From: Paraflavitalea soli
GTDB lineage: Bacteria > Bacteroidota > Bacteroidia > Chitinophagales > Chitinophagaceae
Direction of reading: 5' to 3'
Length of the DNA stretch: 64,000 bases
Assembly (NCBI RefSeq): GCF_003555545.1
Contig: NZ_CP032157.1
Span: forward strand, 6,824,546-6,888,545
Shown: in pieces, positions 11,086 to 28,745 of the stretch
Layout of the letters: every line of letters begins with the position of its first letter
How positions within the stretch are numbered: position 1 is the stretch's first letter
The notes under the pieces: generated by a model
Database searches by the model: none
What the model saw: the letters and a program-made list of their open reading frames with translations, nothing else
What the model was told of the DNA's origin: nothing
Translations under genes and position numbers: made by a program

Positions 11086-12120
11086 TTAGTTAAAGATCAG
11101 TTCGGGATAGGGGATGTCGAGTTTGTATTTGAGATCAGAGCAACGGAACATCAGGATGTTGATAATAGCCTCAGTGGAATACTGGTAACTGATGGTGGGA
11201 GTTACAGGATCGTTTACCCAGTTATTAAAAGTATCTGTGAAATCATCATCCAGCTTATCTAATGTCTTAACGCCAATCTTTTTCAAGGCGGCGGCATTGC
11301 ACATTTGCTCATATTGGCCCTTGATGGGTATGGCGATCATCTTTTTCTTCAGGTGTAAGGCTTCTGCGGGAGTTTCAAATCCTGCGCCGCAAACAATACC
11401 ATGGCAACTGATGAGACTACGATTGAAATCATCCTTATTAACGGGTGTAAGGGTAATATTGCCGATGGTCTTTCTCTCTTTGGTTTGACGGGAGAAGACT
11501 TCGAAGCGGTGATCTTTAAAAGGGGCCAATAAGGCCATCAATTCATTGTCGCAGTAGGATGGCAGGTATACAGTAATATGACCATCATTCCTGGCTTCTG
11601 ATTCCAGGATCTCTTTTTTGATAACGGGAGAGAAGATGAAATCGTCGTATGATTCAAAATGAAGCCCTATATACTGTGTTGCTCTTGCATAGTTCTGCAG
11701 TATCCATTCGCCAAACCTGTTGGTTTTTTCGGGTCTTGGGGTTTTGTCGGAAAGGAAGCTGGCCTGGTGACCAAAGTTTACAGAAGGCACTTTTTTACGG
11801 GCACAGGCCAGGGAGGTGATAATTTCAAAGTCATTCAACACGAGATCGTATTTCTCAACGGGCAGGTCCCTGGCTTCTTTCATGATCCGGAGTGGGGAGA
11901 TACTGCGGGTAAGTTTCCAATAATCGAGGGATCCCTTACAGGTATAGAAGAGGCTAAGTCCGTTGCTCCGGTATTTGACGGGAGCATCGAGGGGTAAGGT
12001 ACTGTTGGCTCCGCTGAGAAAGAGGTCTACGGTTCCAAACTTCTGCAGCCAGGGGAGTAATTCCATTGCCCGGCTGATGTGTCCGTTGCCTGTAGCCTGT
12101 AAAGCATAAAGTATTTTCAT
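11086..12120 (-). CDS. GT-B-fold glycosyltransferase family protein
   Basis: A 344-residue protein beginning MKILYALQATGNGHISRAMEL, the Gly-rich N-terminal loop of GT-B glycosyltransferases that resemble MurG/MGD synthases (Glyco_trans_1_3-like). The second half carries CHGIVCGAGFETPAEALHLKKKMIAIPIKGQYEQMCNAAALKKIG, the nucleotide-sugar binding helix region (GxGFETxxEAL...PxxGQYEQxxNA). It starts 15 bp after the LpxH-like gene and the two surely form an operon. The donor and acceptor are unknown; a glycolipid or envelope sugar is plausible given the partner. No signal peptide, so cytoplasmic or membrane-peripheral. Confidence 0.8.
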   Translation of the reverse strand: MKILYALQATGNGHISRAMELLPWLQKFGTVDLFLSGANSTLPLDAPVKYRSNGLSLFYTCKGSLDYWKLTRSISPLRIMKEARDLPVEKYDLVLNDFEIITSLACARKKVPSVNFGHQASFLSDKTPRPEKTNRFGEWILQNYARATQYIGLHFESYDDFIFSPVIKKEILESEARNDGHITVYLPSYCDNELMALLAPFKDHRFEVFSRQTKERKTIGNITLTPVNKDDFNRSLISCHGIVCGAGFETPAEALHLKKKMIAIPIKGQYEQMCNAAALKKIGVKTLDKLDDDFTDTFNNWVNDPVTPTISYQYSTEAIINILMFRCSDLKYKLDIPYPELIFN

Positions 12121-12135
12121 GTGTGTGCTTACGTA

Positions 12136-13002
12136 TTAAATGGCGAGTGAGTTGATGTAAAAGCTGATTTCGTCTGTAACTACATTTACCTGTCTGCTCA
12201 TTTCTGTAGCAGGGATATGCTGAAAGTCCTTTTCATTGTATTCAAATATCTTCCACTCATTGTGGCTGTATTCCAGTGCTGTGAGGTGTTCCACCCAGTC
12301 GCCTGAATTGAGATAGGTTACTTTTCCCTGTTCATTTTCCACTACTCGTTTCTGAGGCTGGTGAATATGGCCACAGATCACGTAGTCATATTTCTTTTCA
12401 ATGGCCAGCTCGGCTGCTATCATTTCAAAGGTGTTGATCTTGGCCATTTTATTTACTTCGGCCATTACTTTCTTAGAAATGGATAGTTTTTCCCTTCCCA
12501 GCGATTTCAGGATAAAATTCACGAAGCGGTTAAAGAGGATCAGCATACCATACCCGTTGCTGCCCAGCTTGGCCAGGATCTTGGCTCCCCCTTTGGAGGT
12601 GTTGTCAAATACATCACCATGGAAGATCCAGGTCATTTTGTTATCAATTTCCAATACCAGTTTATCGGTAAGGGTGAAATTGCTGAGCTGGAAATCTGCA
12701 TACTTCCTGAGCAGCTCATCATGATTGCCTGTGATATAGAATACTCTTGTACCCTTGGTCATGAGGTTTAATACCTCTTTGATGACGGCCATATGGGTGG
12801 AAGGGAAGTACCGTTTGGAGAACTGCCAACCGTCTATGATGTCGCCATTAAGGATAAGAATATTAGGAGCAATACTTTTGAGGTAAGCTACCAGTTCCCG
12901 GGCATGACACCCGTAGGTTCCCAGGTGAACATCGGAAATAACCACTACGTCTACAGGACGTTTATCCATGGAGTTTGGGTTTTGCAAATTTCCAAAGCTC
13001 AT
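12136..13002 (-). CDS. LpxH-like metallophosphoesterase (UDP-2,3-diacylglucosamine diphosphatase family)
   Basis: Calcineurin-like phosphoesterase of 288 residues. All metal-site blocks are visible in order: DVHLG, GDIIDGW, GNHDE, HGD and GHIHQP. Size and motif order fit the LpxH-related family acting on UDP-2,3-diacylglucosamine in lipid A synthesis. Bacteroidota often carry several related enzymes, so lpxH itself is not certain. It is the first gene of a two-gene minus-strand operon with a GT-B glycosyltransferase, which supports a glycolipid role. Confidence 0.8.
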   Translation of the reverse strand: MSFGNLQNPNSMDKRPVDVVVISDVHLGTYGCHARELVAYLKSIAPNILILNGDIIDGWQFSKRYFPSTHMAVIKEVLNLMTKGTRVFYITGNHDELLRKYADFQLSNFTLTDKLVLEIDNKMTWIFHGDVFDNTSKGGAKILAKLGSNGYGMLILFNRFVNFILKSLGREKLSISKKVMAEVNKMAKINTFEMIAAELAIEKKYDYVICGHIHQPQKRVVENEQGKVTYLNSGDWVEHLTALEYSHNEWKIFEYNEKDFQHIPATEMSRQVNVVTDEISFYINSLAI

Positions 13003-13170: not shown

Positions 13171-13740
13171 ATGCAGGAAGACCTCATTTTACTCATTGGA
13201 GAAAAGATCAAATCGAAGCGTACACAGAAAAATATCACGTTGGAAGAATTGGCCAACAGGGCGGGTGTGACGAAGGGGTTGATCTCGCAGATCGAGAATA
13301 ACCGGACGGTGCCTTCTTTGCCGGTATTGTTTAACCTGATCCATTCATTGGGGGAAGACCTGAAGAGCTTTTTTGAGGATATGCACGAGCATTTTACGAA
13401 TGGCCATGTATTAATTGTGCGTAAAGGAGAAGAAAAGCTTTTTGAGAAGGAGCCGGTCAAGGGTTTCTCCTATAAACGTATCCTTACCAAAAGTGTTGTG
13501 GCGCAGGCGATTGACATTGCCGTGCTGGAATTGAAAAAAGGAGCGGGGCGTAAACAAATGATACAAACAGATGCTTTTGAATGCAAGCACATCCTAAAAG
13601 GAAGTATTGAATACCAGATCGAGAAGGAGAAATTCATGCTGAATGCCGGAGATACCTTGTTTTTTGATGGGCGTGCAAAGCACCGGCTTCGTAATATTGG
13701 CGATACCGAAGCGACCATCTTAGTGATTTACCTATTCTAA
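13171..13740 (+). CDS. XRE-family regulator with C-terminal cupin domain
   Basis: A 189-residue transcription factor. An HTH_3 domain at about 10-64 (KRTQKNITLEELANRAGVTKGLISQIENNRTVPSLPVLF) is followed by a cupin barrel at about 110-187 (ECKHILKGSIEYQI, LNAGDTLFFDGRAKHRLRN, ATILVIYLF). Proteins of this design usually sense a small molecule in the cupin. It sits 179 bp upstream of susC on the same strand, and that gap holds a 14-bp palindrome (13777-13790) and a near copy. It may control the phosphonate locus; this is inference from position. Confidence 0.87.
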   Translation: MQEDLILLIGEKIKSKRTQKNITLEELANRAGVTKGLISQIENNRTVPSLPVLFNLIHSLGEDLKSFFEDMHEHFTNGHVLIVRKGEEKLFEKEPVKGFSYKRILTKSVVAQAIDIAVLELKKGAGRKQMIQTDAFECKHILKGSIEYQIEKEKFMLNAGDTLFFDGRAKHRLRNIGDTEATILVIYLF

Positions 13741-13776
13741 AATACTGGTTTTCATATCGCTTTCCCGTATAACCGC

Positions 13777-13816
13777 GTATTTATAAATACTTAACTCAGG
13801 TTTAGTATTTATAAAC
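13777..13816. promoter_or_regulatory. Paired palindromic operator candidate upstream of susC
   Basis: GTATTTATAAATAC at 13777-13790 is a perfect 14-bp palindrome. GTATTTATAAAC at 13805-13816 is a near copy, 28 bp downstream start to start. They lie just upstream of the 11-bp repeats of the susC promoter and are a plausible binding pair for the XRE-cupin regulator encoded immediately upstream. Confidence 0.45.
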
Positions 13817-13818
13817 AA

Positions 13819-13874
13819 TTAATGCTTTGTTAAACTCGGCATAACCTTCTCTTTACACAACCCGGCTAATTTCG
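13819..13874 (+). promoter_or_regulatory. Pho-box-like promoter of susC
   Basis: Units start at 13819 (TTAATG), 13830 (TTAAAC) and 13841 (ATAACC), each 11 bp apart. The -7-like box TAATTTCG is at 13867-13874, again with TA 26 bp after the start of the last unit. The hexamers are more degenerate than at 2743 or 4270, but the spacing is identical. Confidence 0.5.
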
Positions 13875-13919
13875 GGTCTCAATCTTATTATCACTCTTTC
13901 CATTTAAAACAATCTGTTT

Positions 13920-16900
13920 ATGAGTAAATGCAACCTTTTTACAAGGGTGGTAACGGCATGTCTATTACTGGCCTTACCATTGCTATCTCTCGCACAAAAG
14001 CCGGTTTCCGGAAAAGTTACTTCAATCAAAGATCAGGCACCTGTACCCAGTGTATCGGTTGTTGTGAAAGGAACAACGGTGGGCACTTCTACAAATGCCG
14101 ATGGGGGCTTTTCTATTAATGCCAAAGCCGGCGATGTATTGGTGTTTAGTGGAGTAGGTGTATTACCTAAGGAAGTGGCGGTATCGGGCGATAACATGCA
14201 GGTAGCATTGGAACTGGATGCAAGAGCGTTGAATGAGGTGGTGGTTACTGCCCTGGGTATTAAAAAGGAAAAGAAGAAGCTGGGCTATGCTGTGCAGGAA
14301 GTAAAGGGGGAAGACCTGGTAAAGGCGCGCGAACCCAATCCTATTAATTCATTGGTGGGTAAAGTGGCTGGTTTGACGGTAGGCGCCTCTGCAGAGATGC
14401 TGGCAGGTCCGCAATTGGTATTAAGGGGACGGGGCATCAGCCTGTTTGTAGTAGATGGGGTGCCTATTAATTCGGATACCTGGAATATCAGTCCGGATGA
14501 TATTGAATCTTATACTGTATTGAAAGGGGCCACAGCTTCTGCCCTGTACGGTTCCCGCGGGCTGAATGGTGCTATCATGATTACCACTAAAAGGGGTACC
14601 AGGGATAAGCGGGGCTTTTCCATAGAATTCAATTCGACTACGATGATGGAAAAAGGCTACAATGCTATTCCTAAAGTGCAGGATGAATATGGCCCTGGCG
14701 ACCATGGAAAATATGCTTTTAAAGATGGTAAAGGTGGTGGTTCAAATGATGGGGATTACGACGTGTGGGGACCTAAATTTGAAGGCCAGCTGATTCCGCA
14801 ATATGATAGTCCTGTAGATCCTGTAACGGGCGTACGTCAGGGTACACCCTGGACAGCACGTGGTAAGAATAACCTGCAACGTTTTCTGCAAACGGGATTG
14901 CTTTCTACCAATAATATATCTGTTTCGTCCCGTAGTGATAAATATGACCTGCGCTTTTCGATCTCGAATACTTATCAGAAAGCGATGGTGCCTAATATGA
15001 AGATCAATATCACGAATTTCAATATATCTGCCGGGTACAATTTCTCAGATAAGGTGCGCCTGGAGGGATACCTCAATTATAACCGCCAGTACACGCCCAA
15101 TTTTCCAGATGTGAACTATGGTCCCAATAGCATGATCTATAATATCACGATCTGGGCCGGTGCCGACTGGGATGTTGACCAGATGCGTAATTACTGGCAG
15201 CCGGGCAAGGAAGGTGTACAAAGTATTTATGCAGAATACCAGCGTTACCATAACCCCTGGTTTATGGTAAAGGAATGGTTGCGCGGTCATTATAAGACAG
15301 ATGTGAATGGTTATGCCAAACTTAGCTATCAGCCTGTAAAAAACATAGAGTTGATGGCCCGCACGCAGGTAACTACCTACGATCTGTTCAGGAATGAAAA
15401 AATGCCATTCTCTGCTCACCCTTATGGCCGTGAGGAAGGACGTGGAGATTACCGGGAAGACAAGCGTACGCTGTTTGAGAACAACACTGATTTTCTGGGT
15501 ACGTATACAAACCGTTTCCGTGGCAATATTGATGTAAAGGGATCGCTGGGTGGTAATATCCGTAGCTTTAAATACAATTCCAGCTTTGTTACGACGGATT
15601 ACCTTAACGTACCAGGCTGGTATAACTTCAACAATACGCGTAATCCCCTGCGGGCTTCCAGCTTTGCAGCGGATATGTTGACCTTGAGCGGATATGGATA
15701 CCTGGACGTATCGCTGAATAAATATGCTAATATTTCTTTGGCAGGCCGTTTTGATAAATTGTCGGCATTGCCTTCCAGCAAAAATGTGTATTTCTATCCT
15801 TCTGCTGCCGTAAGTTCAGTAGTGAGTGATTATGTTGTACTGCCGGAAGCTATTTCTTTCCTGAAAGTACGTGGTTCTTATGCCAATGTGAAAGGTGGTT
15901 TAACGCAGGCTACGATTGGCGCTACCCCACAGGCCAGTTATCCGCTGGGATATGGTACAGAATATTATGCTGCTTATGATGGTCCTTCTTATGAGAATTC
16001 AGCTGCCTACACCACACCTCCGGTGTATAATAATCAGCCGGGTGCTTATTATACCAGCACGCTCGATAACCCGGAGATCAAACCTTTTTCCAGTACGGTA
16101 TATGAGGCGGGTGCCGATATCCGTTTCCTGAACAATAAGATTGGTGTAGACGTCACTTATTTCACCACCAAGGATGGCCCGCGGATCTTTACGGCTCCTT
16201 TATCACAGACGACGGGTTATACGGGTGCTTTGCAGAATGGCATCACTACGAAGAAAACCGGCTGGGAAGTTTCGTTAAATGCTACGCCGGTAAGTACTTC
16301 AAGCGGCTTTAGCTGGACCACAATGGTAAACTGGTCTACTTATAAAGAAGTATACACTAAATTCTATGGTGATCTGACGCAGCTGGATATCTATACCAAA
16401 ATAGGTGACAGGGTGGACAAATTTATAGGTTCTGCCTTTGTAAAGACGCCCGATGGTAAGATCATCAATGATGCGGGTGGCCGCCCTATCCGTAATCCGG
16501 TATCGCAGGTACAGGGCAATACGAACCCCGACTGGGTTTGGAGCTTTATCAATACGCTGAGCTTTAAGAATTTCAGGTTTGGTTTCCAGTTTGATGGACG
16601 TGTAGGTGGTAAGATGGTCAACTATATACAGCAGCAGACTTACCGTGGCGGCCGTCATATCAATACGGTGCAAGGTAAAATGGGTGAGGCGCGCCTGCAA
16701 GACTATAAAGGGGTTAAATCCTGGGTGGGTGAAGGAGTTGTGATCAGTAATGGTACGGCTATTGAATATGATAACCTGGGTAATGTAACCAATTATGGTA
16801 AGCTGCAATACGCTATGAATACCACTCCTACTTACCTGCAGGACTATATCAGCTTTTACTACAATACCAATGAGGCAAACCTGATCGACAAAACGTTTGC

Positions 16901-17120
16901 GAAGCTTCGTGAAGTAACGCTTACTTATACTGTTCCTCAAAACATATTGGGCAAAAGCTTTATGAAGCAAGCCAGCATTTCATTGGTGGGTCGTAACCTG
17001 CTGTATTTTTCAAAGTATAAAGATGTGGATATTGATCAGTATGCGGGGAGCCAGGGAAGTTCCAGCCTGCAAACACCTACTGCCAAACGCTATGGTGTGA
17101 ACATCAATATTGTGTTTTAA
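13920..17120 (+). CDS. SusC/RagA-family TonB-dependent receptor
   Basis: Outer-membrane importer of 1066 residues. Signal peptide to about SLAQ, CarboxypepD_reg-like domain (about 28-100: PVSGKVTSIKDQAPVPSVSV), the LNEVVVTALGIKKEKKKLGYA junction of SusC proteins, plug domain (about 120-235, with VLKGATASALYGSRGLNGAIMITTKRG) and barrel to the terminal NINIVF. The gene is followed 24 bp later by susD, so the two form the usual gated outer-membrane pair. Downstream genes are for phosphonate breakdown, which suggests a phosphonate-bearing glycan, lipid or peptide as ligand rather than a plain polysaccharide. No glycoside hydrolase is present in the locus. Confidence 0.95.
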   Translation: MSKCNLFTRVVTACLLLALPLLSLAQKPVSGKVTSIKDQAPVPSVSVVVKGTTVGTSTNADGGFSINAKAGDVLVFSGVGVLPKEVAVSGDNMQVALELDARALNEVVVTALGIKKEKKKLGYAVQEVKGEDLVKAREPNPINSLVGKVAGLTVGASAEMLAGPQLVLRGRGISLFVVDGVPINSDTWNISPDDIESYTVLKGATASALYGSRGLNGAIMITTKRGTRDKRGFSIEFNSTTMMEKGYNAIPKVQDEYGPGDHGKYAFKDGKGGGSNDGDYDVWGPKFEGQLIPQYDSPVDPVTGVRQGTPWTARGKNNLQRFLQTGLLSTNNISVSSRSDKYDLRFSISNTYQKAMVPNMKINITNFNISAGYNFSDKVRLEGYLNYNRQYTPNFPDVNYGPNSMIYNITIWAGADWDVDQMRNYWQPGKEGVQSIYAEYQRYHNPWFMVKEWLRGHYKTDVNGYAKLSYQPVKNIELMARTQVTTYDLFRNEKMPFSAHPYGREEGRGDYREDKRTLFENNTDFLGTYTNRFRGNIDVKGSLGGNIRSFKYNSSFVTTDYLNVPGWYNFNNTRNPLRASSFAADMLTLSGYGYLDVSLNKYANISLAGRFDKLSALPSSKNVYFYPSAAVSSVVSDYVVLPEAISFLKVRGSYANVKGGLTQATIGATPQASYPLGYGTEYYAAYDGPSYENSAAYTTPPVYNNQPGAYYTSTLDNPEIKPFSSTVYEAGADIRFLNNKIGVDVTYFTTKDGPRIFTAPLSQTTGYTGALQNGITTKKTGWEVSLNATPVSTSSGFSWTTMVNWSTYKEVYTKFYGDLTQLDIYTKIGDRVDKFIGSAFVKTPDGKIINDAGGRPIRNPVSQVQGNTNPDWVWSFINTLSFKNFRFGFQFDGRVGGKMVNYIQQQTYRGGRHINTVQGKMGEARLQDYKGVKSWVGEGVVISNGTAIEYDNLGNVTNYGKLQYAMNTTPTYLQDYISFYYNTNEANLIDKTFAKLREVTLTYTVPQNILGKSFMKQASISLVGRNLLYFSKYKDVDIDQYAGSQGSSSLQTPTAKRYGVNINIVF

Positions 17121-17144
17121 TAATCAACCAGCAAATTACCAGTT

Positions 17145-18719
17145 ATGAAAATCCGGAATATTGTTATAATAAGTTCTTTGGTGGCATTTACAGCGGGTGG
17201 CTGCCAGAAGAAATACGATGAATACGCTAATAACCCGAACAAGCCAACTACTGTTCCACCGAACCTGGTGTTGACGGGCATCCTTTCTGATCTCAATGGG
17301 GATAAGCCCTGGAGCCTGGTTAGCAGGTGGTGTCAGTTTGATAACTGTAATTATAATTATTATGGTGATCAGCGTTATGACTGGACAGGGGCCGGGCTGA
17401 ATTATGCTACACTGAGCAATGTGGTCAAAATGGAAGGAGAAGCCAGGCGGGTGGGCGAACCTGAACAGAATGCCTATGCATCATTGGGTAAGTTTTTCAG
17501 GGCCTTTTTCTTTTATCGTATGACTAACCTGGTAGGTGATCTTCCTATGAAGGATGCGCTGAAAGGGGCTGCTTTGTCGGAGCCGGTTTATGATAGTCAG
17601 AAGGAAATATTTGTACAGATCCTTAAATGGCTGGATGAGGCGAATACGGAAATAGCGGCGTTGATCGCTAAATCGGGAGATGGAAAAATTGATGGAGACT
17701 TTTACTATACTACGCGGTCGGCCTGGCAGCGTGCCATTAATGCTTTCCGCTTGCGGGTGCTGATTGCGCTGAGTAAAAAGACAGCAGATGGTGATCTGAA
17801 GGTAGCGCAAACATTTGCTGCGATTCTCGGTGATGGAGCTAAGTATCCTTTGTTTCGCAATGTGGGGGATAATTTACAATATATCTATTCCAATTTCAAT
17901 AAGTATCCCAGCAACCCGGATAACCTGGGGTTTGATGCCACCCGCTATAATATGTCGGCCACTTATTTGAATGCATTGGTGACCTTGAAAGACCCACGTG
18001 CCTTTGTTACTGCTGAGCCTGCCACCAGACAGCTAAGCAATGGTAAGACGCCCGCGGATATTACTGCCTATGTAGGCGCCAGCTCGGGAGAAGACCTGGC
18101 TGCCATGTCTTCTAAAATGGCTGATGCTGATAAAGGGGAGTATTCGGTACGGAGCCGTAGCCGTTATTATGCCAATTATAATGCTGAACCTGGTGTACAG
18201 ATAGGCTATGCTGAAATGTGTTTCAATATAGCGGAAGCCATCAACAGGGGATGGGCAACCGGTAATGCGGAAGATTGGTATAAAAAAGGCATTAAAGCTT
18301 CTGTTGCCTCTTATGGTATTCCTGTAGATGCGGCAGGCACTTTCAGCAAGGTATATCCCTATGGCGCCAGCAATGCTGTTACTTACCCCATTAATTTCGA
18401 TTTTGAGAATGTTTATTACCAACAGGCAGGCGTAAAATATGGTGGCAACAATGCTACGGGGCTGCAGCAGATCTTGTTGCAAAAGTACCTGGCATTTTTC
18501 CAAAATTCCGGATGGGAGGCTTATTATAACTATCGCAGAACTGGCGAGCCAGGTTTTCTGACCGGAACCGGTACTGGCAATAGCAGCCGTATACCCAAAC
18601 GTTTTCAGTATCCTACATCAGAGCGTACTACCAATGGCAGTAACTGGGAGAAAGCGGTGAAGGCCCAGTTTGGCGGCACTACGGATGATATTAACGGCGA
18701 TATGTGGCTGATTAAATAA
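17145..18719 (+). CDS. SusD/RagB-family surface lipoprotein
   Basis: Ligand-capture lid of the SusC receptor, 524 residues. The lipobox TAGGC gives the lipidated Cys at residue 20. The early YDEYANNPNKPTTVPPNLVLTGIL and the late AEMCFNIAEAINRG and RRTGEPG segments match the SusD-like group (SusD-like_2 type) built on TPR-like helices. It lies 24 bp after susC. A terminator hairpin follows at 18902, before the enzyme genes, so transcript levels of receptor and enzymes may differ. Confidence 0.93.
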   Translation: MKIRNIVIISSLVAFTAGGCQKKYDEYANNPNKPTTVPPNLVLTGILSDLNGDKPWSLVSRWCQFDNCNYNYYGDQRYDWTGAGLNYATLSNVVKMEGEARRVGEPEQNAYASLGKFFRAFFFYRMTNLVGDLPMKDALKGAALSEPVYDSQKEIFVQILKWLDEANTEIAALIAKSGDGKIDGDFYYTTRSAWQRAINAFRLRVLIALSKKTADGDLKVAQTFAAILGDGAKYPLFRNVGDNLQYIYSNFNKYPSNPDNLGFDATRYNMSATYLNALVTLKDPRAFVTAEPATRQLSNGKTPADITAYVGASSGEDLAAMSSKMADADKGEYSVRSRSRYYANYNAEPGVQIGYAEMCFNIAEAINRGWATGNAEDWYKKGIKASVASYGIPVDAAGTFSKVYPYGASNAVTYPINFDFENVYYQQAGVKYGGNNATGLQQILLQKYLAFFQNSGWEAYYNYRRTGEPGFLTGTGTGNSSRIPKRFQYPTSERTTNGSNWEKAVKAQFGGTTDDINGDMWLIK

Positions 18720-18901
18720 TAATTCCTTAATCATGGGAATGTTATCAGCATTAAAGTTCTTTGTTAGCTTCGAACCCTGTTTTAGATCCTGCAAAAATGA
18801 ACCAGCAGATCACCACCAGGGGTGAATGCACTACCTCTATTCTTAATAAGCAGTACATTCTACAAATTTATAAGCAATCGTAGCAGTTTCTTAATGTTGA
18901 C

Positions 18902-18932
18902 GGCGGAGCTTTTCTAAGGTCCGCCCTTTTTT
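18902..18932 (+). terminator. Terminator or attenuator between susD and the enzyme genes
   Basis: GGCGGA at 18902-18907 pairs with TCCGCC at 18920-18925, with inner pairs CTT/AAG and a TTCT loop, followed by C and six T. It ends only 27 bp before the start of the phosphatase-superfamily gene. No obvious promoter lies between, so read-through probably feeds the downstream genes. Confidence 0.75.
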
Positions 18933-18958
18933 ATTTTCCAACCAACTCATCTACAAAT

Positions 18959-20038
18959 ATGAAACATATTTTCTTATCACTGGCAACCAGTATGGTTGTT
19001 ATAACAGCAATGGCGCAACACCGTAAAACGGAGAACCTTATTATTGTAACGCTGGATGGCATGCGTTGGCAGGAGGTATTTAAAGGGGTAGACCCGGTAT
19101 TGATGAAGGACAGCAGTTTTAACCAGGACAAGGAGGGTGTCAAACAAAAGTTCTGGGCAGAAGAGGTAACTGACAGGAGAAAGAAATTGTTTCCTTTCCT
19201 GTGGTCTGTTGTAGCTGAGCAGGGGCAGTTGTATGGCAACCGTCAATTTGATAACAAGGTAGATAATGCCAACCCGCACTGGTTCTCGTATCCAGGTTAT
19301 AATGAGATCATGACGGGGTATCCGGATACGGCTGTGAACTCTAATGATAAGATACTCAATAAGCATGAAAATGTATTGGAGTTCATCAACAAGCAAAAAG
19401 GATACGTAGGCAAGGTAGCCGCATTTTCCACCTGGGATGTGTTTCCTTATATCCTGAATGAGCCCCGCAGCGGCGTGTATGTAAATGCTGATATTGACAC
19501 GCTTAAGTTTAAGGCGCCGGGTCTTCAACTGCTGAATGATATGCAGTTCCTGACGACTAAACCAATCGGCGTGCGTCCTGATATTATTACCTATATGGCG
19601 GCCAGGGAATATCTAAAGGAATACAAGCCCAAAGTGCTGTATATTGCTTTTGACGAAACGGATGATTTTGCGCATGCAGGGATGTATGATCAATACCTGG
19701 GCAGTGCTCATGCGGAGGATGCGATGATCCGTGATATCTGGAATACGGTGCAGTCGATGCCTGGGTATAAAGACAAGACTACCTTGCTGGTTACGGTAGA
19801 TCATGGCCGGGGAGATAAAGTGAAGTCCAACTGGAAGCACCATGGAAGTAAAATTGAGGATGCACATGAGATCTGGCTGGCGGTATTGGGGCCTGACACC
19901 AAACCGACAGGAGAAGTGAAAGTGCCCGGGCAATTGTACCAGAAACAAATTGCGGCGACCATTGCGCGGCTGCTGGGCATGCATTTTACGGCCAACCACC
20001 CGGTGGCGGACCCAATTCAAACGGTATATTCAAATTAA
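18959..20038 (+). CDS. Exported alkaline-phosphatase-superfamily hydrolase
   Basis: A 359-residue periplasmic or surface enzyme with signal peptide (cleavage near MAQ). The bimetal site can be traced: LIIVTLDGMRW (Asp33), a candidate Ser nucleophile at Ser110 in WFSYPGYNEIMTG where nucleotide-pyrophosphatase relatives have Thr, then FDETDDFAHAG, VDHGRG and KHHGSK. The layout resembles phosphodiesterases/phosphonate hydrolases (NPP, PhnA) more than classical PhoA. It is the first of five tightly spaced genes ending at 23721. I infer that it splits a phosphonate ester or phosphodiester to free a small phosphonate for import. Substrate unproven. Confidence 0.85.
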   Translation: MKHIFLSLATSMVVITAMAQHRKTENLIIVTLDGMRWQEVFKGVDPVLMKDSSFNQDKEGVKQKFWAEEVTDRRKKLFPFLWSVVAEQGQLYGNRQFDNKVDNANPHWFSYPGYNEIMTGYPDTAVNSNDKILNKHENVLEFINKQKGYVGKVAAFSTWDVFPYILNEPRSGVYVNADIDTLKFKAPGLQLLNDMQFLTTKPIGVRPDIITYMAAREYLKEYKPKVLYIAFDETDDFAHAGMYDQYLGSAHAEDAMIRDIWNTVQSMPGYKDKTTLLVTVDHGRGDKVKSNWKHHGSKIEDAHEIWLAVLGPDTKPTGEVKVPGQLYQKQIAATIARLLGMHFTANHPVADPIQTVYSN

Positions 20039-20043
20039 TTAGT

Positions 20044-20622
20044 ATGAATAAAATACAGGCGGAAGCCATTGCTACGGAAATTATTGCTTTGTACGAGCAT
20101 CATGGCGGTGCGGAATATGCGGGTGAAAAGGTGACGCAACTGGAGCATATGGTGCAGGCGGCACAGTTGGCGGAGCAACGAGGGCATGAAGAAGAGGTAA
20201 TACTGGCAGCCTTTCTCCATGATATTGGCCATATCTGTGTTTCGGCAGCGGAAGACAATGAGATGGATGGGTACGGCATAAAGGATCATGAAGAAGTAGG
20301 CGGGGCCTTCCTGCAGGAGAAAGGTTTTTCAAAGCGGCTCATCCGTTTGGTAGAAGCGCATGTGGAAGCCAAGCGATACCTCACCTGGAAATCACCTGCT
20401 TATTATGAGCAATTGTCGGCGGCCAGCAAGAAAACGCTGGAATACCAGGGAGGACAAATGAGTGAGGAGGAAGCACTTGCTTTTGAACAATACCCCCTGT
20501 TTCAACTGATCATTGACATGCGGCTTTGGGATGAAGAAGCCAAGATAGAAGGGCTGCCGGTTCCAGACCTAAGTAAATATCACGGTATGATGGTGCGTCA
20601 TTTAACTAATAAAAGTTTATAA
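20044..20622 (+). CDS. PhnZ-like HD-domain phosphonate oxygenase
   Basis: A 192-residue HD protein, 5 bp after the phosphatase gene. PhnZ is a mixed-valence di-iron oxygenase that splits (R)-1-hydroxy-2-aminoethylphosphonate to glycine and phosphate. Its iron ligands and substrate residues have clear equivalents here at nearly the same numbers: Tyr25, Glu28, His35, His59-Asp60, His63, His82, His106, Lys110 and Asp163 (the last in RLWDEEAK). This makes a generic nucleotide phosphohydrolase unlikely. The usual partner PhnY, an alpha-ketoglutarate hydroxylase, is not in the window. A related substrate, as for TmpB, cannot be excluded. Confidence 0.85.
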   Translation: MNKIQAEAIATEIIALYEHHGGAEYAGEKVTQLEHMVQAAQLAEQRGHEEEVILAAFLHDIGHICVSAAEDNEMDGYGIKDHEEVGGAFLQEKGFSKRLIRLVEAHVEAKRYLTWKSPAYYEQLSAASKKTLEYQGGQMSEEEALAFEQYPLFQLIIDMRLWDEEAKIEGLPVPDLSKYHGMMVRHLTNKSL

Positions 20623-20626
20623 TATA

Positions 20627-21310
20627 ATGTCTATTAAGCTGGTCGTATTTGATATAGCGGGTACTACGGTGCGTGACAAAGGTAGTGTGGCGGAGGCTTT
20701 CATGCAGGCTGCTGGAGGATTTGGGATAACGGTACCGCTTGAAGAGGTCAATAAGGTGATGGGATTCCGAAAAAAAGAAGCTATCCGTATTTTGCTCGAT
20801 AAGTTTTATCTTGAACGCAAGGAGGATGTAGAAGCGCTCATTGAAAAGATCCACGACGCATTTACGCGTAACATGATCGATTTCTATGAACAGGATGTAG
20901 ACCTGGCTCCACTGCCTTATGCAGAAGCAACCTTTGCCTGGCTGAAAGAGCGGGATATTAAGATTGCGCTGAACACGGGTTTTACGAGGCCCATTACGAA
21001 CACCATATTGAAACGATTGCAATGGGATAGGAATGGAGTGATCGATATGGTGATCACGAGTGATGAAGTGCCTGAGGGTAGACCTCATCCCTATATGATT
21101 GCCGCGATCATGCAGCAATTGCAAGTGACAGATCCCACGCAGGTGGCCAAAGTGGGAGATACGGAAGTAGATGTAGAAGAAGGCAGGAATGCAGCTTGTG
21201 GCCTTGTGGTGAGTGTGACTACGGGCGCTTATACGCGCAGTGAGCTGGAGCAGTATAACCCGGATATTATTATTGACAGTCTAGCTGAATTTCCACCTTT
21301 AATACAATAG
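20627..21310 (+). CDS. PhnX-like (phosphonatase-like) HAD hydrolase
   Basis: A 227-residue HAD protein of the phosphonatase-like group. The nucleophile motif is FDIAGTT (Asp9), the DxAGT form typical of phosphonoacetaldehyde hydrolase instead of DxD. Lys49 in VMGFRKKEA aligns with the Schiff-base Lys of PhnX (MGLLK), and EGRPHP carries the Arg that replaces the usual HAD Lys. VGDTEVDVEEG is the C-terminal acidic motif. It is therefore a good candidate for C-P cleavage of phosphonoacetaldehyde or a close analogue. It starts 4 bp after the PhnZ-like gene. Confidence 0.85.
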   Translation: MSIKLVVFDIAGTTVRDKGSVAEAFMQAAGGFGITVPLEEVNKVMGFRKKEAIRILLDKFYLERKEDVEALIEKIHDAFTRNMIDFYEQDVDLAPLPYAEATFAWLKERDIKIALNTGFTRPITNTILKRLQWDRNGVIDMVITSDEVPEGRPHPYMIAAIMQQLQVTDPTQVAKVGDTEVDVEEGRNAACGLVVSVTTGAYTRSELEQYNPDIIIDSLAEFPPLIQ

Positions 21311-21313
21311 CGT

Positions 21314-22597
21314 TTGTCAACTTTAACAGCCAACCCCTCTACGCTCTCCAAAAAACAGGTATTAACAGCGCTGTATGCAGCCTCTGTAGCTTTTCTTACC
21401 TATGCTTCCGTATACGCTTATCGTAAACCTTTTACGGTGGCTACCTTTGAAGGACTTAGTTTCTGGGGAGTAAAATACCAGGTATTGCTCATCATGAGCC
21501 AGGGATTGGGGTATATGTTCAGTAAATTTTATGGGATCAAATTCATTGCTGAATTAAAAAGGCTGGGCCGCTGGAAAACGAGCGCTATCCTGGTAGGGAG
21601 TGCCTGGTTCTGCCTGTTGTTATTCGGCCTGGTGCCAGCGCCCTGGGGATTGCCCTGTATGTTCGTTAATGGATTTATGCTGGGCTTTATGTGGGGCATT
21701 GTATTTAGTTATGTAGAAGGAAGGAAGACCACTGATTTTATAGGAGCGGCGATGGCGGTGAGCTTTATTTTCGCCGGGGGCTTTACGCGCTCGGTGGCTT
21801 TGTGGCTGAAGGAGAGCTGGCAGGTGCCGGAACAATGGCTGGCGTTTGTGACGGGGCTTATCTTTAGTCTTCCTCTGATCTTTTTCATGTACCTGCTGGA
21901 GCGCATACCCCCGCCTGACGGGGATGATATTAAAGAAAGGACGGTGCGCCTACCTATGACCAAGGAGCAAAGGTTGAAATTTCTTCGTTTGTTTGGGGCC
22001 GGCACGATCGCGATCATCATTACTTACCTGTTTCTGACGGTAATGCGGGATGTGCGGGATAATTTCATGTCGAACCTGTGGAGTGAACTGGGGTATGGTC
22101 AAAAGCCTGAGGTATTTACAAAAACTGAAACGATTACTTCTATTGTCATACTGATTATGATCAGCCTGCTGGTGGGTATCCGTAAAAATATACGTGCTTT
22201 CCGGCTGGTACACATCATGGTGCTGGTTGGATTCCTGCTGGCTGGTATCTCTTCTGCTTTGTTTCTTGCGGGCCTCATGAATGGCGCAGTATGGATGCAA
22301 CTGGTAGGGCTGGGCTTGTATATGGGCTATATTCCTTTCAATTGTATCTTCTTTGAGCGACTGATTGCATCCTTTAAGATCGTAGGGAATGTGGGATTCC
22401 TTATTTACCTGGTTGATGCGTATGGTTACCTGGGTAGTACGCTGGTGATGCTTTCGAAAGAAATATTTCAAATAAAATTAACCTGGTCTCAGTTCTATCC
22501 TGCCGGTGTAGTGATATTTTCGGTCATTGGAATTGGGGGAACTATTTTTTCCCTGTTGTATTTCAACCGGAAATTTGAATCATTAAAACCCGTTTGA
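21314..22597 (+). CDS. DUF5690-like major-facilitator transporter
   Basis: Inner-membrane protein of 427 residues with about 10-12 hydrophobic segments and an MFS-like layout (KFYGIKFIAELKRLGRW loop, a cytoplasmic central loop about 195-220 with ERIPPPDGDDIKERT). I believe it belongs to the DUF5690 group, recognised from memory. It starts with TTG 3 bp after the HAD gene and overlaps the FAD gene by 1 bp. In this setting the likely cargo is a phosphonate or its product; this is inference. Confidence 0.7.
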   Translation: MSTLTANPSTLSKKQVLTALYAASVAFLTYASVYAYRKPFTVATFEGLSFWGVKYQVLLIMSQGLGYMFSKFYGIKFIAELKRLGRWKTSAILVGSAWFCLLLFGLVPAPWGLPCMFVNGFMLGFMWGIVFSYVEGRKTTDFIGAAMAVSFIFAGGFTRSVALWLKESWQVPEQWLAFVTGLIFSLPLIFFMYLLERIPPPDGDDIKERTVRLPMTKEQRLKFLRLFGAGTIAIIITYLFLTVMRDVRDNFMSNLWSELGYGQKPEVFTKTETITSIVILIMISLLVGIRKNIRAFRLVHIMVLVGFLLAGISSALFLAGLMNGAVWMQLVGLGLYMGYIPFNCIFFERLIASFKIVGNVGFLIYLVDAYGYLGSTLVMLSKEIFQIKLTWSQFYPAGVVIFSVIGIGGTIFSLLYFNRKFESLKPV

Positions 22598-23721
22598 TGA
22601 CAAAACCTTCAGCTATTGTAATCGGTGCCGGTATTGTGGGATTGGCCACTGCCCGCGCGCTCGCAATTAAGGGATATGCGGTGAAAGTATTTGAGCGTAC
22701 ACACAAAGCTGTTGGCGCTTCTATTCGCAATTTTGGTATGATATGGCCAATAGGCCAGCCTGATAAATTATACGATCGTGCCTTGCGTAGCCGGGAAATA
22801 TGGAAGGAGATGGGAGATGCCGGCGCATTCTGGTATGATGCGCCTGGTAGTTTGCACCTGGCTTATCACCAGGATGAATGGCAGGTGCTGCAAGAATTGT
22901 ATGAGCAATTCCGTACGGAAAGACCGGTCTTCTTGTTGACTGCTGCTGAAGTGGCCGACAAGTCCGGCGCCGCGGTACAGGAGCATTTGCTGGGTGGGCT
23001 CTACAGTGCGGATGAACTGATCGTAGATCCCCGGGAAGCTATTGCCGGTGTACCAGGATACCTGCATGAGCAATATGGGGTAGCATTCTTCTGGGGCAAA
23101 TGTGTGAGTTATATTTCTGATAATACGATCTACATCGGAAACGAGGAAGAGTATGAGGGGGATGTGATCTTTATTTGCAGTGGGGCAGACTTTGAAACGC
23201 TTTATCCCGAAGCGTTTGCCGGTTATCCGCTTACCAAATGCAAATTGCAGATGATGCGGTTTGCGGCACAGCCGGACAATTGGCGTATCGGCCCGGCTTT
23301 GTGTGGTGGATTGTCATTGATCCATTATAAGAGTTTTACGGCTTCTGCTTCTTTAGCGGCGCTCAAAAAGCGCTATGAAGCGGATATGAGTGATTACCTC
23401 GATTGGGGTATTCATGTGATGGTGTCGCAAAATGGACGAGGCGAACTTACTGTAGGTGATTCTCATGAATATGGTCTTACGCATGACCCTTTTGACAAGG
23501 ACTTTATCAATACGATGATCGTAAATTACCTCAGGACCTTTGCTCATTTTAAGGACAGCAGGATCATAGAAACCTGGAATGGTATCTATCCCAAACTTAC
23601 GAATGGGGATACGGACCTGTTCTTTTCACCGGAACCGGCTGTATATGTGCTGAATGGTCTCAGTGGCGCAGGTATGACACTCTCCTTCGGTCTGGCAGAA
23701 GAAGCCACGGCTTTTTTGTAA
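22597..23721 (+). CDS. FAD-dependent oxidoreductase of phosphonate loci (TIGR03364-like)
   Basis: A 374-residue DAO-type flavoprotein. The Rossmann motif is VIGAGIVGLATARALA (about 8-23), followed by VFERTHKAVGASIRNFGMIWPIGQ, a characteristic block of the TIGR03364 family that is found beside phosphonate-degradation genes, and a C-terminal NGLSGAGMTLSFGLAEE FAD contact. The ATG at 22597 overlaps the stop of the transporter gene by one base. Relatives oxidise aminoethylphosphonate derivatives (N-methylated or free) to phosphonoacetaldehyde, which would feed the HAD hydrolase. The exact substrate is not determined by sequence. Last gene of the cluster. Confidence 0.85.
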   Translation: MTKPSAIVIGAGIVGLATARALAIKGYAVKVFERTHKAVGASIRNFGMIWPIGQPDKLYDRALRSREIWKEMGDAGAFWYDAPGSLHLAYHQDEWQVLQELYEQFRTERPVFLLTAAEVADKSGAAVQEHLLGGLYSADELIVDPREAIAGVPGYLHEQYGVAFFWGKCVSYISDNTIYIGNEEEYEGDVIFICSGADFETLYPEAFAGYPLTKCKLQMMRFAAQPDNWRIGPALCGGLSLIHYKSFTASASLAALKKRYEADMSDYLDWGIHVMVSQNGRGELTVGDSHEYGLTHDPFDKDFINTMIVNYLRTFAHFKDSRIIETWNGIYPKLTNGDTDLFFSPEPAVYVLNGLSGAGMTLSFGLAEEATAFL

Positions 23722-26090: not shown

Positions 26091-26879
26091 ATGGACCTGA
26101 ATAAGTTTTATGACAAGGCATGGGACTGGATCCTTACAGTAGGGCCACGGATACTGGTAGCTTTGCTGCTGTTGTTCATTGGGCTATGGTTGATCCGGGT
26201 GCTAAAACGATGGACGCGTGCCCGTATGCAAAAGCGAGCTGTTTCTTCCACACTGGCGCCTTTTCTGCAAAGTTTGATCTTCACCATCCTCTATGTCCTG
26301 CTTTTCCTGCTATTGATGCAGGTATTGGGTATACAGATGACGCTTTTTGCGGCCATTATCGGAGGTGTTACTGTAGCTGCGGGTCTGGCCTTATCGGGTA
26401 CCATGCAAAATTTTGCCAGCGGTATACTGATCCTGCTATTGAAACCTTTCCGGATCGGGGATAATATCATAACACAAGGACAGGAGGGAACGGTATCTTC
26501 TATACAGATATTCTATACGGTGATCACCACTTTCGACAACAAGATTGTCATAGTGCCCAACAGTAAGTTGTCGAATGAGATCATTATCAATACCAGCCGG
26601 GAAGGTAAGCGTCGGATGGATATTGAATTGAAGTTGAATTATGGAATTGAAGTAGAAAAGGTGCAGACGATCATAGAAGGTATTATTCGCGCGGATAAAG
26701 ACATATTGACGCAGCCGGTTCCGCGGGTGGGGGTTTCAGCATTAGATGCAGACGGGTATAAGATCATGGTAAATGCCTGGGTAAAGCCTCATGGTTTCCA
26801 GGATGAGCGGTTGATGCTGCAAGAGAAGATCATTCAGGGTATTAAAAGCGCGGGGATCAAACTGCCGGGTATGGCTTAG
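26091..26879 (+). CDS. Small-conductance mechanosensitive channel (MscS family)
   Basis: A 262-residue MscS-core protein. Three N-terminal membrane segments are followed by the pore-helix region (FAAIIGGVTVAAGLALSGTMQNFASGILILLLKPFRIGD) and the cytoplasmic beta domain (EGTVSSIQIFYTVITTFDNKIVIVPNSKLSNEIIINTS). It protects against osmotic downshock. Its stop overlaps the convergent histidine kinase stop by 4 bp. Confidence 0.93.
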   Translation: MDLNKFYDKAWDWILTVGPRILVALLLLFIGLWLIRVLKRWTRARMQKRAVSSTLAPFLQSLIFTILYVLLFLLLMQVLGIQMTLFAAIIGGVTVAAGLALSGTMQNFASGILILLLKPFRIGDNIITQGQEGTVSSIQIFYTVITTFDNKIVIVPNSKLSNEIIINTSREGKRRMDIELKLNYGIEVEKVQTIIEGIIRADKDILTQPVPRVGVSALDADGYKIMVNAWVKPHGFQDERLMLQEKIIQGIKSAGIKLPGMA

Positions 26880-27931
26880 GCATTGTCTCTTTTGGCTTCG
26901 AGCGAGAAGCCAATGGTAGTACCTACACCGGGTGCGCTGCGTACATGGATGCTTTGGCCGTGGGCTTCAATAATGTGTTTGCAAATAGCGAGTCCGAGGC
27001 CGGTACCACCTTTATCGCGACTGCGGGCTGCATCGGTACGATAAAAGCGTTCAAAGATGCGGTTGAGGTGTTCTTCTTCAATACCTATACCGTCGTCACC
27101 AATTTCAACCAATACGTGTTTTTCGTCGGTCTTGTAAACGCTGGCCACGATGGTACCACCGGGTTTGCCGTATTTGGTGGCATTCCCTACCAGGTTGATC
27201 AATACCTGCTTGATCTTTTCTTTATCGGCAAATACGGTGATGGGAGCTTCACAGCCTTTTTTAATGGTGGTCTTGATATTCTTTTCCTGGATCTTGATGG
27301 AGAGGGAGTCGTATATCTCGCGTATGAGGTCCTGGATAATAAAATTCTGCTTGTATAATAGTTGTTCGCCACTTTCCAGCCTGGATATCTCGTCCAGGTC
27401 GTTGACCAGGTTTACCAGCCTGTCTACATTCTTGGCAGTATTTTCCAGGAATTTTTTGCGGATCACTTCTTCTTCCATGGCGCCTCCCAACAGGGTGTCA
27501 ACATAACCCTGGATGGCAAAAATGGGTGTTTTGATCTCATGGGCCAGGTTTTGCAGGAACTCTTTGCGGTATGCTTCGTTCTTTTGCAGCATTTCTATTT
27601 CCTTATTGCGCCGTTCGCCCCAGGCTTCCACGTCTTCCCGTACTTCGTCAATACTTTTTTGTGGCAGGATGTATTTAAAGTATACCTCTTCTTTTTTAGT
27701 AGCTTTTGTTTGGTAGATGAGCTTGTAAATGAGTTTGATCTTCCGGTAGATGAATTTTTCCAGCGTAAAGATGATCAGTCCATAACTGCCGGCAAAAACC
27801 AGGGCGAGGGAGCCAATGCCTACCCGCCAATCGAATGTAAACAGGAAAATGCCTATGGCGATAGGGACCGATAAGATAACGGCTGTAAAAGCGGCTAACT
27901 GCCGCGGGGAAAGATTTTTAGTGGAGAACAT
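26876..27931 (-). CDS. PhoR-like sensor histidine kinase
   Basis: A 351-residue membrane sensor kinase from the ATG at 27931 (an upstream TTG adds six unlikely residues). Two N-terminal membrane segments leave almost no periplasmic domain. The HisKA box is EFLQNLAHEIKTPIFAIQGY and the ATPase blocks are LINLVGNATKYG (N), EIGDDGIGI (G1) and GTGLGLAI (G2). It follows the response regulator gene by 101 bp on the same strand. The pair resembles PhoB/PhoR; given the Pho-box-like sites in the window this is the likely phosphate sensor pair, though no PhoU or Pst genes are adjacent to confirm it. Confidence 0.88.
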   Translation of the reverse strand: MFSTKNLSPRQLAAFTAVILSVPIAIGIFLFTFDWRVGIGSLALVFAGSYGLIIFTLEKFIYRKIKLIYKLIYQTKATKKEEVYFKYILPQKSIDEVREDVEAWGERRNKEIEMLQKNEAYRKEFLQNLAHEIKTPIFAIQGYVDTLLGGAMEEEVIRKKFLENTAKNVDRLVNLVNDLDEISRLESGEQLLYKQNFIIQDLIREIYDSLSIKIQEKNIKTTIKKGCEAPITVFADKEKIKQVLINLVGNATKYGKPGGTIVASVYKTDEKHVLVEIGDDGIGIEEEHLNRIFERFYRTDAARSRDKGGTGLGLAICKHIIEAHGQSIHVRSAPGVGTTIGFSLEAKRDNA

Positions 27932-28032
27932 GCCCCTTGTGCTTGACAACGTTTTGATGTGGTACGAAAATAACTCAATCGCGCGGATGTTGCTGAATTA
28001 TATACTCACCGTGCGGGAGCTGTTTCCAGCTC

Positions 28033-28719
28033 TTATATATCAAATTTATAACCTACGCCTTTCACGGTGGTAATGCAATCAATACCCAGTTTCTGGCGCA
28101 CTTTGCGGATATGCACATCAATGGTACGGTCTCCTACGATCACATCATTGCCCCAAACCTGGTTTAAAATTTCATTCCGGAGGAATACCCGTCCTGGTTT
28201 GGAAGCCAGGAGGTACAGGAGTTCAAATTCCTTTTTGGCGAGTACAACGGCCTTGCCGTCAACTTTTGCCTCAAATTTTACGGGATCGATCTCCAGGTTG
28301 TCAATGCGGATCACTTTTTCGCCTTCAGGTTCTTTGGCTGTGGTGCGGCGAAACAGGGCATTTACCCTGCTAACCAATATTTTAGGGCTTACGGGCTTGC
28401 TGATATAGTCATCTGCCCCTGTTTCCAGGCCCCGTACATGGGAGCCTTCATCGCTCAGGGCGGTGAGGAACAGGATGAGGGTATCTTTGAAAGAAGGTTG
28501 GGAACGCAGTATTTCACACACTTCCACCCCATTTTTCTTGGGCATCATAATGTCCAGGACAATTAGATCGGGATTGTTGGAGCGGGCCTTGGTAAGCGCT
28601 TCATCCCCATCTTTTGCAGTCAACACATCATAGCCTTCCTTTTGCAGGTTGTACTGTATGATTTCCAATATATCGGGCTCGTCATCAGCGATCAGGATCT
28701 TCTTACCTTTAGAGTCCAT
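28033..28719 (-). CDS. OmpR/PhoB-family response regulator
   Basis: A 228-residue regulator. Receiver domain (about 1-122) has the acidic pair in LIADDEPD, the phospho-acceptor in LIVLDIMMPKKNG, the LTALSD switch residue and the YISKP lysine. A winged-helix domain (about 135-228) ends in DRTIDVHIRKVRQKLGIDCITTVKGVGYKF. Regulators of this type bind 11-bp-spaced direct repeats, matching the arrays at 2743, 4187, 4259 and 13819. The start is ATG at 28719: the frame extends to 28740, but that lies inside the -7 box. Confidence 0.9.
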   Translation of the reverse strand: MDSKGKKILIADDEPDILEIIQYNLQKEGYDVLTAKDGDEALTKARSNNPDLIVLDIMMPKKNGVEVCEILRSQPSFKDTLILFLTALSDEGSHVRGLETGADDYISKPVSPKILVSRVNALFRRTTAKEPEGEKVIRIDNLEIDPVKFEAKVDGKAVVLAKKEFELLYLLASKPGRVFLRNEILNQVWGNDVIVGDRTIDVHIRKVRQKLGIDCITTVKGVGYKFDI

Positions 28720-28737
28720 GTTAACAATAAATTTACG

Positions 28738-28745
28738 CAAAGTTA
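28738..28745 (-). promoter_or_regulatory. -7 box of the response-regulator/kinase unit
   Basis: TAACTTTG on the minus strand matches TAnnTTTG, 18 bp before the ATG at 28719. No 11-bp TTAACA-type repeat lies at the 26-bp position, so autoregulation by that route is not seen. Confidence 0.55.

Follow-up and report, generated by a model that had tools for sequence, protein, structure and literature searches.

The locus described here raises the question of why a SusCD pair of the outer membrane should stand in one row with genes of aminophosphonate breakdown. It lies in a stretch of 64,000 nucleotides from Paraflavitalea soli (the window; contig NZ_CP032157.1, positions 6,824,546 to 6,888,545), whose genome is a single contig of 8.44 Mb. 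The answer reached here, and considered quite probable, is that the row serves aminophosphonate utilisation across both membranes, from capture at the cell surface to the release of phosphate. Eight open reading frames (ORFs), all on the + strand, span positions 13171–23721, and each of them matches the family for which it is named:

13171–13740, +: XRE-family regulator with a C-terminal cupin, PuuR-like layout (HTH_3 and Cupin_2 above the gathering score)
13920–17120, +: SusC-type TonB-dependent outer-membrane transporter (TIGR04056, 454.8 bits, cut-off 368.25)
17145–18719, +: SusD-type surface lipoprotein (PF12771, 182.1 bits)
18959–20038, +: alkaline-phosphatase-superfamily hydrolase (PF01676, a weak match, 25.2 versus 24.3)
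20044–20622, +: PhnZ-like HD-domain di-iron oxygenase (TIGR03276, 212.3, just below the cut-off of 214.6)
20627–21310, +: PhnX-like HAD hydrolase (TIGR03351, 189.4 versus 218.9; TIGR01422, 139.2 versus 220)
21314–22597, +: DUF5690 carrier of major facilitator superfamily (MFS) fold (PF18943, 514.7 versus 25)
22594–23721, +: TIGR03364 flavoprotein of the PbfD type (412.8 bits, cut-off 285.1)

The gene content, strand and coordinates proposed in a first-pass annotation, made from the sequence letters, were all borne out by the ORFs and the family matches. The same is true of its remark that the last five genes lie within a few bases of each other: with the start codons of the ORF tool, they are separated by 5, 4 and 3 bases and then overlap by 4. 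The start codon of the flavoprotein gene is uncertain (TTG, then ATG). SusC and SusD are 24 bases apart; since the gaps between the XRE gene and SusC (179 bases) and between SusD and the hydrolase gene (239 bases) are wider, a single transcript for all eight genes is putative only. Promoter and terminator scans of the sequence were uninformative (28 versus 23.2 expected, and 15 versus 10.2 expected, respectively).

Module exchange in relatives and the SusCD association

The conservation sample consisted of 195 genomes of Chitinophagaceae, the family of which Paraflavitalea is a member and for which the sample is named; one of them (G085) shares the genus of the window genome. In the family, 100 loci around PhnZ or DUF5690 were read, and the named flavoprotein loci are the best 80 of 201 relatives. 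Comparisons of co-occurrence in genomes count related genomes as independent and are thus descriptive only.

The strongest evidence for the phosphonate reading is the exchange of modules in relatives. It supports this reading because four functions located in the cytosol or the inner membrane are each replaced by named aminophosphonate genes: the flavoprotein and the HAD by PhnW and PhnY plus PhnA, PhnZ by PbfA, and DUF5690 by the ABC transporter for 2-aminoethylphosphonate (AEP). The second SusCD phosphonate locus of G085 (L125) holds the row SusC–SusD–hydrolase–DUF5690 together with PhnA (506.3 bits versus 407.55), PhnY dehydrogenase (682.7 versus 635.65) and PhnW (481.2 versus 400.8); the first locus of that genome (L032/L131) shows neither the HAD nor the alkaline-phosphatase-superfamily gene. 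At L075, the same three genes accompany PhnZ, the hydrolase, SusCD and DUF5690. A Dyadobacter locus (L138) has a row of HAD, flavoprotein, a PF01663 phosphodiesterase, PbfA and DUF5690, with no PhnZ, and its PbfA, the (R)-1-hydroxy-AEP ammonia-lyase, scores 739.6 versus 525 bits. Over 180 loci, BLAST located PbfA in 11 and PhnZ in 102, never together, in a count that includes loci picked for PhnZ and one weak PbfA match (L165, 161 bits); the 80 loci drawn by the flavoprotein gave 8 with PbfA, 50 with PhnZ and 0 with both. Concerning the carrier, BLAST in the 80 named loci found DUF5690 in 50 and the AEP ABC permease in 8, both in none and neither in 22. Outside Bacteroidota, a cyanobacterial locus (L164) places HAD, flavoprotein and PhnZ beside components of the AEP ABC transporter in place of DUF5690, both above cut-off: TIGR03261 (479.5 versus 392.75) and TIGR03262 (729.4 versus 593.25). 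In three actinobacterial loci (L193, L194 and L203) the flavoprotein has near it, by BLAST labels only, a PhnA-like gene (42–45% identity) and an aldehyde dehydrogenase (32–36%), which in two of them is more distant or encoded on the opposite strand.

Concerning the outer-membrane pair, 52 PhnZ loci of the family scored above 60 bits, of which the 43 with at least 6 kb upstream were kept and 9 near a contig end were dropped. SusC and SusD occur on the same strand within 10 kb in 40 of these 43 loci, which is the outcome of the neighbourhood survey that the first-pass annotation had proposed. The chance expectation is about 13%, as estimated from the density of SusC in the window genome and assuming that all 217 first-look candidates are SusC (the 56 that were scored were all above the cut-off). 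Because 40/43 is so far from this value, the grouping of SusCD with PhnZ is not due to chance. A close SusD homologue (E ≤ 1e-100) is present in 50 of the 71 genomes with TIGR03364 or PhnA, and in 4 of the 124 others. SusCD keeps close to the phosphonate genes through several rearrangements; the gene order is kept in Chitinophagaceae, and the same genes appear in Mucilaginibacter, Roseivirga, Algoriphagus and others. The joining of a phosphonate-catabolic gene set to SusCD, as first annotated, is thus supported both by the module exchanges and by the survey.

By its gene content, the locus is a SusCD system (a SusC above the TIGR04056 cut-off adjoins SusD, whose lipobox-like GGC, judged by eye, ends at residue 20), and not a polysaccharide utilisation locus, as no carbohydrate-active enzyme was found among the eight proteins. 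The absence of glycosidases and peptidases pointed out earlier held when the eight proteins were matched to family profiles. With SusCD beside an alkaline-phosphatase-superfamily gene, it has the gene content of a phosphate utilisation system (PUS), export of the hydrolase being judged by eye. Of the 54 family loci that have SusD, 24 also contain a homologue of the XRE–cupin protein, probably the regulator of the locus; among the 80 named flavoprotein loci, 19 have one within 10 kb.

Other neighbours seen in these loci are recorded here in their own right. In the cyanobacterial locus, a ureidoglycolate-lyase-like gene (L164:11114–11752) lies between the flavoprotein and PhnZ. Alcohol dehydrogenases near TIGR03366, a putative phosphonate-associated family, adjoin DUF5690 and the HAD in two loci (L062:6334–7449 and L127:5906–7006; 298.7 and 304.3 versus 328.1). 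L075 (2686–3912) and L069 have a second DAO flavoprotein, not of TIGR03364, near PhnW and DUF5690, with N-methyltryptophan oxidase as the best match (123.7 versus 257). Three Chitinophaga loci (L176, L177 and L182) have HAD and flavoprotein with no DUF5690 or SusCD label nearby, and in L176 the two stand beside PorP/SprF and an FAD-linked oxidase. A Pedobacter genome paper mentions PhnA without a complete AEP pathway (PMC4642753).

Cytosolic enzymes and the DUF5690 carrier

PhnZ-like genes were found in 53 of the 195 genomes. For 46 PhnZ loci the sequence ran on for at least 4 kb downstream; within 10 kb, on either strand, 44 of these have DUF5690, 42 the flavoprotein and 36 the HAD. Compared with the PDB, the window protein is closer to PhnZ (4mlm, E 1.5e-43) than to TmpB (E 7.3e-32). 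Residues H35, H59, D60, H82, H106, Y25, E28, K110 and D163, which include the HD di-iron ligands and the Y/E lid pair, are kept in at least 97% of 101 sequences. A match to PhyH, the family of PhnY-type hydroxylases, was not found among the eight proteins. Five PhyH genes lie elsewhere in the window genome, unlinked, and the only PhnY model that they match is that of methylphosphonate hydroxylase (best score 64.8 versus 500); a hydroxylase encoded by one of them may act in trans. No PhyH-like gene was found near PhnZ in 103 loci, the window included, in a search with three queries from the same genome that had low sensitivity and no positive control. Because no hydroxylase stands beside PhnZ, it seems most likely that the enzyme salvages ready-made (R)-1-hydroxy-AEP, as PbfA does. 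Regarding natural sources, 1-hydroxy-AEP has been reported, along with AEP, from the soil amoeba Acanthamoeba, and also in lipids of Bdellovibrio stolpii (PMC8154272).

The HAD protein is predicted from its sequence to be a phosphonoacetaldehyde hydrolase. Its K49 aligns with position 53 of the PhnX chain, the Schiff-base lysine, and D9 is the nucleophile Asp. All 104 homologues keep D9, K49, R152 and D182 unchanged (100 distinct sequences among the 103 that come from the loci). So, of the PhnZ and PhnX-like identities first proposed, the part that depends on catalytic residues stands, and the part that would require the curated cut-offs does not, as both proteins miss them.

In the 195 genomes, the flavoprotein occurs in 66, the HAD in 67 (E ≤ 1e-30) and both in 63. 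The weakest HAD matches (G059, G128 and a second copy in G163) score 115–133 bits. The three genomes with the flavoprotein and no HAD (G008, G123 and G142) all have PhnA, which is found in only 10 of the 195. All 66 flavoprotein genomes therefore hold a candidate consumer of phosphonoacetaldehyde, or of the oxidation product, be it HAD or PhnA. Of the four genomes with HAD only, G048, G183 and G190 have the locus at a contig end, and G174 is without such an explanation. In the window genome, no PhnW was found above the cut-off (best score 50 versus 360.8, TIGR03301) and PhnA gave no match at E ≤ 1e-60; PhnJ, by which C–P lyase was sought, gave 0 matches where the E. coli control was found. Because PhnW, PhnJ and PhnA were not detected, phosphonoacetaldehyde is likely to be supplied by the flavoprotein and consumed by the HAD. 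The main route would thus likely consist of a PbfD-type flavoprotein, predicted to be an N-methyl-AEP/AEP oxidase yielding phosphonoacetaldehyde, and a PhnX-like hydrolase. TIGR03364 is the family assigned to PbfD1; PbfD enzymes oxidise N-methyl-AEP and AEP, PbfD2 being only 4-fold poorer on AEP, and PbfD2 has been described with PhnY and PhnA (PMC10590968).

DUF5690 accompanies TIGR03364 or PhnA in every one of the 71 genomes that have either, and it occurs in 19 more. Its model is that of an MFS protein (pLDDT 89.4). The top PDB fold match is human G6PT/SLC37A4 (E 1.3e-7, TM 0.61/0.63), which accounts for five of the first ten; GLUT and other sugar carriers score nearly alike. R245 is kept in all 140 sequences and R37 in 139, the remaining one having a gap; the two may correspond to the two phosphate-binding arginines of GlpT. 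At the sequence level, the window protein matched no NCBIfam family and no PDB sequence, and when 37 members were compared with NCBIfam, six families appeared, with one member each, at E 0.038 or worse. DUF5690 is not named in the literature searched. Its co-occurrence, its fold and its replacement by the AEP ABC transporter agree with the earlier suggestion of a carrier and indicate that DUF5690 is probably an aminophosphonate importer. As a separate observation, five loci (L086–L090) have a lone DUF5690 that is 66–73% identical to the window copy and lies at the same conserved genomic site, with no catabolic genes.

The exported hydrolase, the proposed route and its alternatives

The alkaline-phosphatase-superfamily protein has a signal-peptide-like start, judged by eye. 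D33, S110, D235, H239, D281, H282 and H295 are invariant in 17 aligned sequences, and in our view resemble the two-metal site and the nucleophile of the superfamily. The model (pLDDT 89.5) has LtaS/LtaP, YejM and NPP as the nearest folds, with sulfatases also listed, at TM ~0.5, a similarity that does not point to one substrate. Sequence searches gave weak matches to NPP, iPGM, sulfatase and phosphonate monoester hydrolase (best E 0.0096). It is probable that the protein is a phosphodiesterase or phosphonate-ester hydrolase. For this slot, enzymes were counted if encoded within 10 kb of PhnZ and on its strand, whether or not they directly follow SusD. Of the 43 loci, 39 have one or more phosphoesterase-type genes, and in 22 of the 43 a gene of the window kind is the sole phosphoesterase type. 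In other loci, GDPD, a beta-lactamase-fold protein or PF04185 proteins with a beta-propeller (types PE1 and PE2) are added to it or used instead. One member of each was scored with Pfam, giving 117.4 for GDPD, 35.1 and 58.4 for PF04185, and a value just under the gathering score for the beta-lactamase. No glycosidase or peptidase is among these slot types. The phosphodiesterase-type enzymes of relatives fit the cleavage of a phosphonate ester, without proving it.

Considering these assignments together, SusCD would capture a phosphonate-bearing molecule at the cell surface, and the exported hydrolase would cut a phosphonate ester to give AEP, N-methyl-AEP and 1-hydroxy-AEP. These compounds would then be carried by DUF5690 across the inner membrane. 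In the cytosol, the flavoprotein would oxidise AEP or N-methyl-AEP to phosphonoacetaldehyde, which the PhnX-like HAD would split into acetaldehyde and phosphate via a lysine Schiff base; in parallel, PhnZ would convert (R)-1-hydroxy-AEP, with glycine and phosphate as products. Published homologues and conserved residues are the basis on which these enzyme roles are predicted. One complete route had been annotated originally. The phosphonate enzymes of that route stand, but PhnZ and the PhnX-like protein are more likely two parallel ends, for hydroxy-AEP and for AEP/N-methyl-AEP, than serial steps. A source carrying both AEP and hydroxy-AEP would account for the presence of both arms in one locus. 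According to PMC6697681, bacteria that make phosphonates mostly do so to decorate their cell surfaces, with AEP-like molecules. Only tentatively can one go further and propose a phosphonoglycan or phosphonolipid counterpart of polysaccharide utilisation loci, in which SusCD takes up a macromolecular surface phosphonate with AEP and 1-hydroxy-AEP, and DUF5690 proteins are aminophosphonate importers across Bacteroidota.

Several observations weigh against the aminophosphonate locus. SusCD is not near PhnZ in 3 of the 43 loci (L066, L070 and L083); the genome of L066 (G177) has SusCD–DUF5690 at L109, while its flavoprotein and HAD genes are on a different contig, and that of L083 (G055) has other parts at L078. 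The solved relatives of the hydrolase are only remote (TM ~0.5), its homologues occur in 103 of 195 genomes, as compared with 53 for PhnZ, and no phosphoesterase type was found in 4 of the 43 PhnZ loci. The PhnZ-like protein is a near miss for TIGR03276 (212.3 versus 214.6), and if PhnZ drew on AEP, the lack of an adjacent hydroxylase would be odd. The HAD scores under the cut-offs of both PhnX (TIGR01422) and PhnX-like (TIGR03351) families, and has A52 at the position of PhnX His56 (Ala in 85 of 104), so its pocket differs; moreover, it is absent within 10 kb in 17 of the 80 flavoprotein loci. As for the carrier, 22 of those 80 showed no DUF5690 and no ABC permease, and catabolic genes are missing within 6 kb at 23 of 96 DUF5690 loci (22 counting PbfA in L114). 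In a tree of 93 DUF5690 proteins, 12 of the lone copies cluster together and 11 are dispersed among those from operons, a pattern consistent with repeated loss.

It is conceivable, but somewhat unlikely, that SusCD and the hydrolase are a PUS-like scavenger of organophosphates in general (phospholipid or nucleotide fragments), aminophosphonates being handled among other phosphorus compounds. The GDPD and PF04185 phosphoesterases of relatives and the wider spread of hydrolase homologues compared to phosphonate genes argue for it, as do the phosphodiesterases and the phosphatase that adjoin PusCD in Flavobacterium (PMC8115612); however, the close SusD homologue tracks the phosphonate genes, as counted above. 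A supply of nitrogen and carbon from AEP, induced by substrate under XRE–cupin control, rather than a phosphate-starvation system, is an unlikely option. It has in its favour that the regulator gene heads the putative operon, and that phosphate-independent use of AEP is known (AepP, PMC8316502). Against it, the phosphonate genes lie between an LpxH-like/glycosyltransferase pair and a PhoB/PhoR-like pair in 8 of the 100 family loci and in the window, an arrangement that may be plain synteny.

The changed pocket residue of the HAD, A52 for His56, could also mean that 1-hydroxy-AEP, rather than AEP, is the substrate of the flavoprotein, and the aldehyde from it that of the HAD, as proposed in the TIGR03364 note quoted in PMC10590968. 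This is improbable, because PbfD enzymes act on N-methyl-AEP and AEP (PMC10590968), the flavoprotein genomes lacking HAD all possess PhnA, with which the phosphonoacetaldehyde route ends, and hydroxy-AEP is already served by PhnZ or PbfA. That SusCD is merely a neighbour of the phosphonate genes is very improbable: the gap of 239 bases before the hydrolase gene and the ~13% of genes that are near a SusC by density would allow it, but not the presence of the pair in 40 of 43 loci nor its persistence through rearrangements. The aminophosphonate utilisation locus is thus preferred here.

Regarding the flanks, a divergent pair at 11086–13002 (−) comprises a glycosyltransferase (PF13528) and an LpxH-like metallophosphoesterase (56.3 versus 134 bits), possibly a lipid-remodelling pair; a plcP-like homologue is found in 19 of the 100 family loci. 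At 26876–28740 (−) there are a histidine kinase and a response regulator, whose best NCBIfam matches, PnpS/WalK/PhoR and PhoB, are below cut-off; a homologous pair occurs in 24 of the 100. The flanking pairs were rejected as proof of phosphate control, since all 25 NCBIfam matches shown per protein are below cut-off, and among the 13 loci in which both flanks occur, 5 (L087, L088, L090, L092 and L108) carry DUF5690 without any catabolic gene, so that synteny may explain the arrangement.

Comparison with known systems

Phosphonate breakdown has been described mostly from Pseudomonadota, and in a term search the stem 'Bacteroid' was absent from the main text of a 2023 review (PMC10574752). About a third of the sampled family genomes (66/195) carry the flavoprotein arm, and SusCD is mostly nearby where PhnZ is present. 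If the proposed route is true, DUF5690 gains a testable function, a PhnZ without PhnY is explained, and polymer- or lipid-bound phosphonate is a food taken up by bacteria through SusCD. While most of the enzymes belong to known types, little work exists on the coupling to the outer membrane or on the DUF5690 family of inner-membrane carriers. In Flavobacterium, low-phosphate SusCD complexes are known, with phosphonate-degrading enzymes nearby noted in one sentence (PMC8115612; no phosphonate pathway is set out in the text consulted, and phnX, phnW and phnA are not named in the main text). The combination of PbfD and PhnX is also known (PMC10590968). In the literature searched, SusD and 2-aminoethylphosphonate are not mentioned together, and among the matches listed for SusC and phosphonoacetaldehyde no title describes such a locus. 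What is new here is DUF5690 as a probable importer, PhnZ as a unit for hydroxy-AEP salvage, and the route proposed from the outer membrane to phosphate.

With the hydrolytic PbfD–PhnX pathway for AEP (PMC10590968), the locus shares a TIGR03364-type flavoprotein and a PhnX-type HAD with no PhnW, but its HAD resembles TIGR03351 while scoring below cut-off, and the two enzymes are linked here with PhnZ, DUF5690 and SusCD. The oxidative PhnY/PhnZ pathway likewise has a PhnZ, whose metal ligands and Y/E pair are kept here, and differs in PhnY, which is lacking from the locus, the five PhyH genes being unlinked and scoring 64.8 versus 500 at best. As in the PhnWX or PhnWAY pathways with PbfA (PMC8154272), an AEP route is joined to a side enzyme for (R)-hydroxy-AEP, but here PhnZ takes the side role and the flavoprotein replaces PhnW. 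AepP, the GlpT-related 2-AEP permease (PMC8316502), is likewise an MFS carrier beside AEP genes, whereas DUF5690 has no sequence-level link to any known family. Lastly, the PusCD of Flavobacterium (PMC8115612) resembles the locus in that SusCD is accompanied by phosphoesterases in place of glycosidases; induction by low phosphate was reported there.

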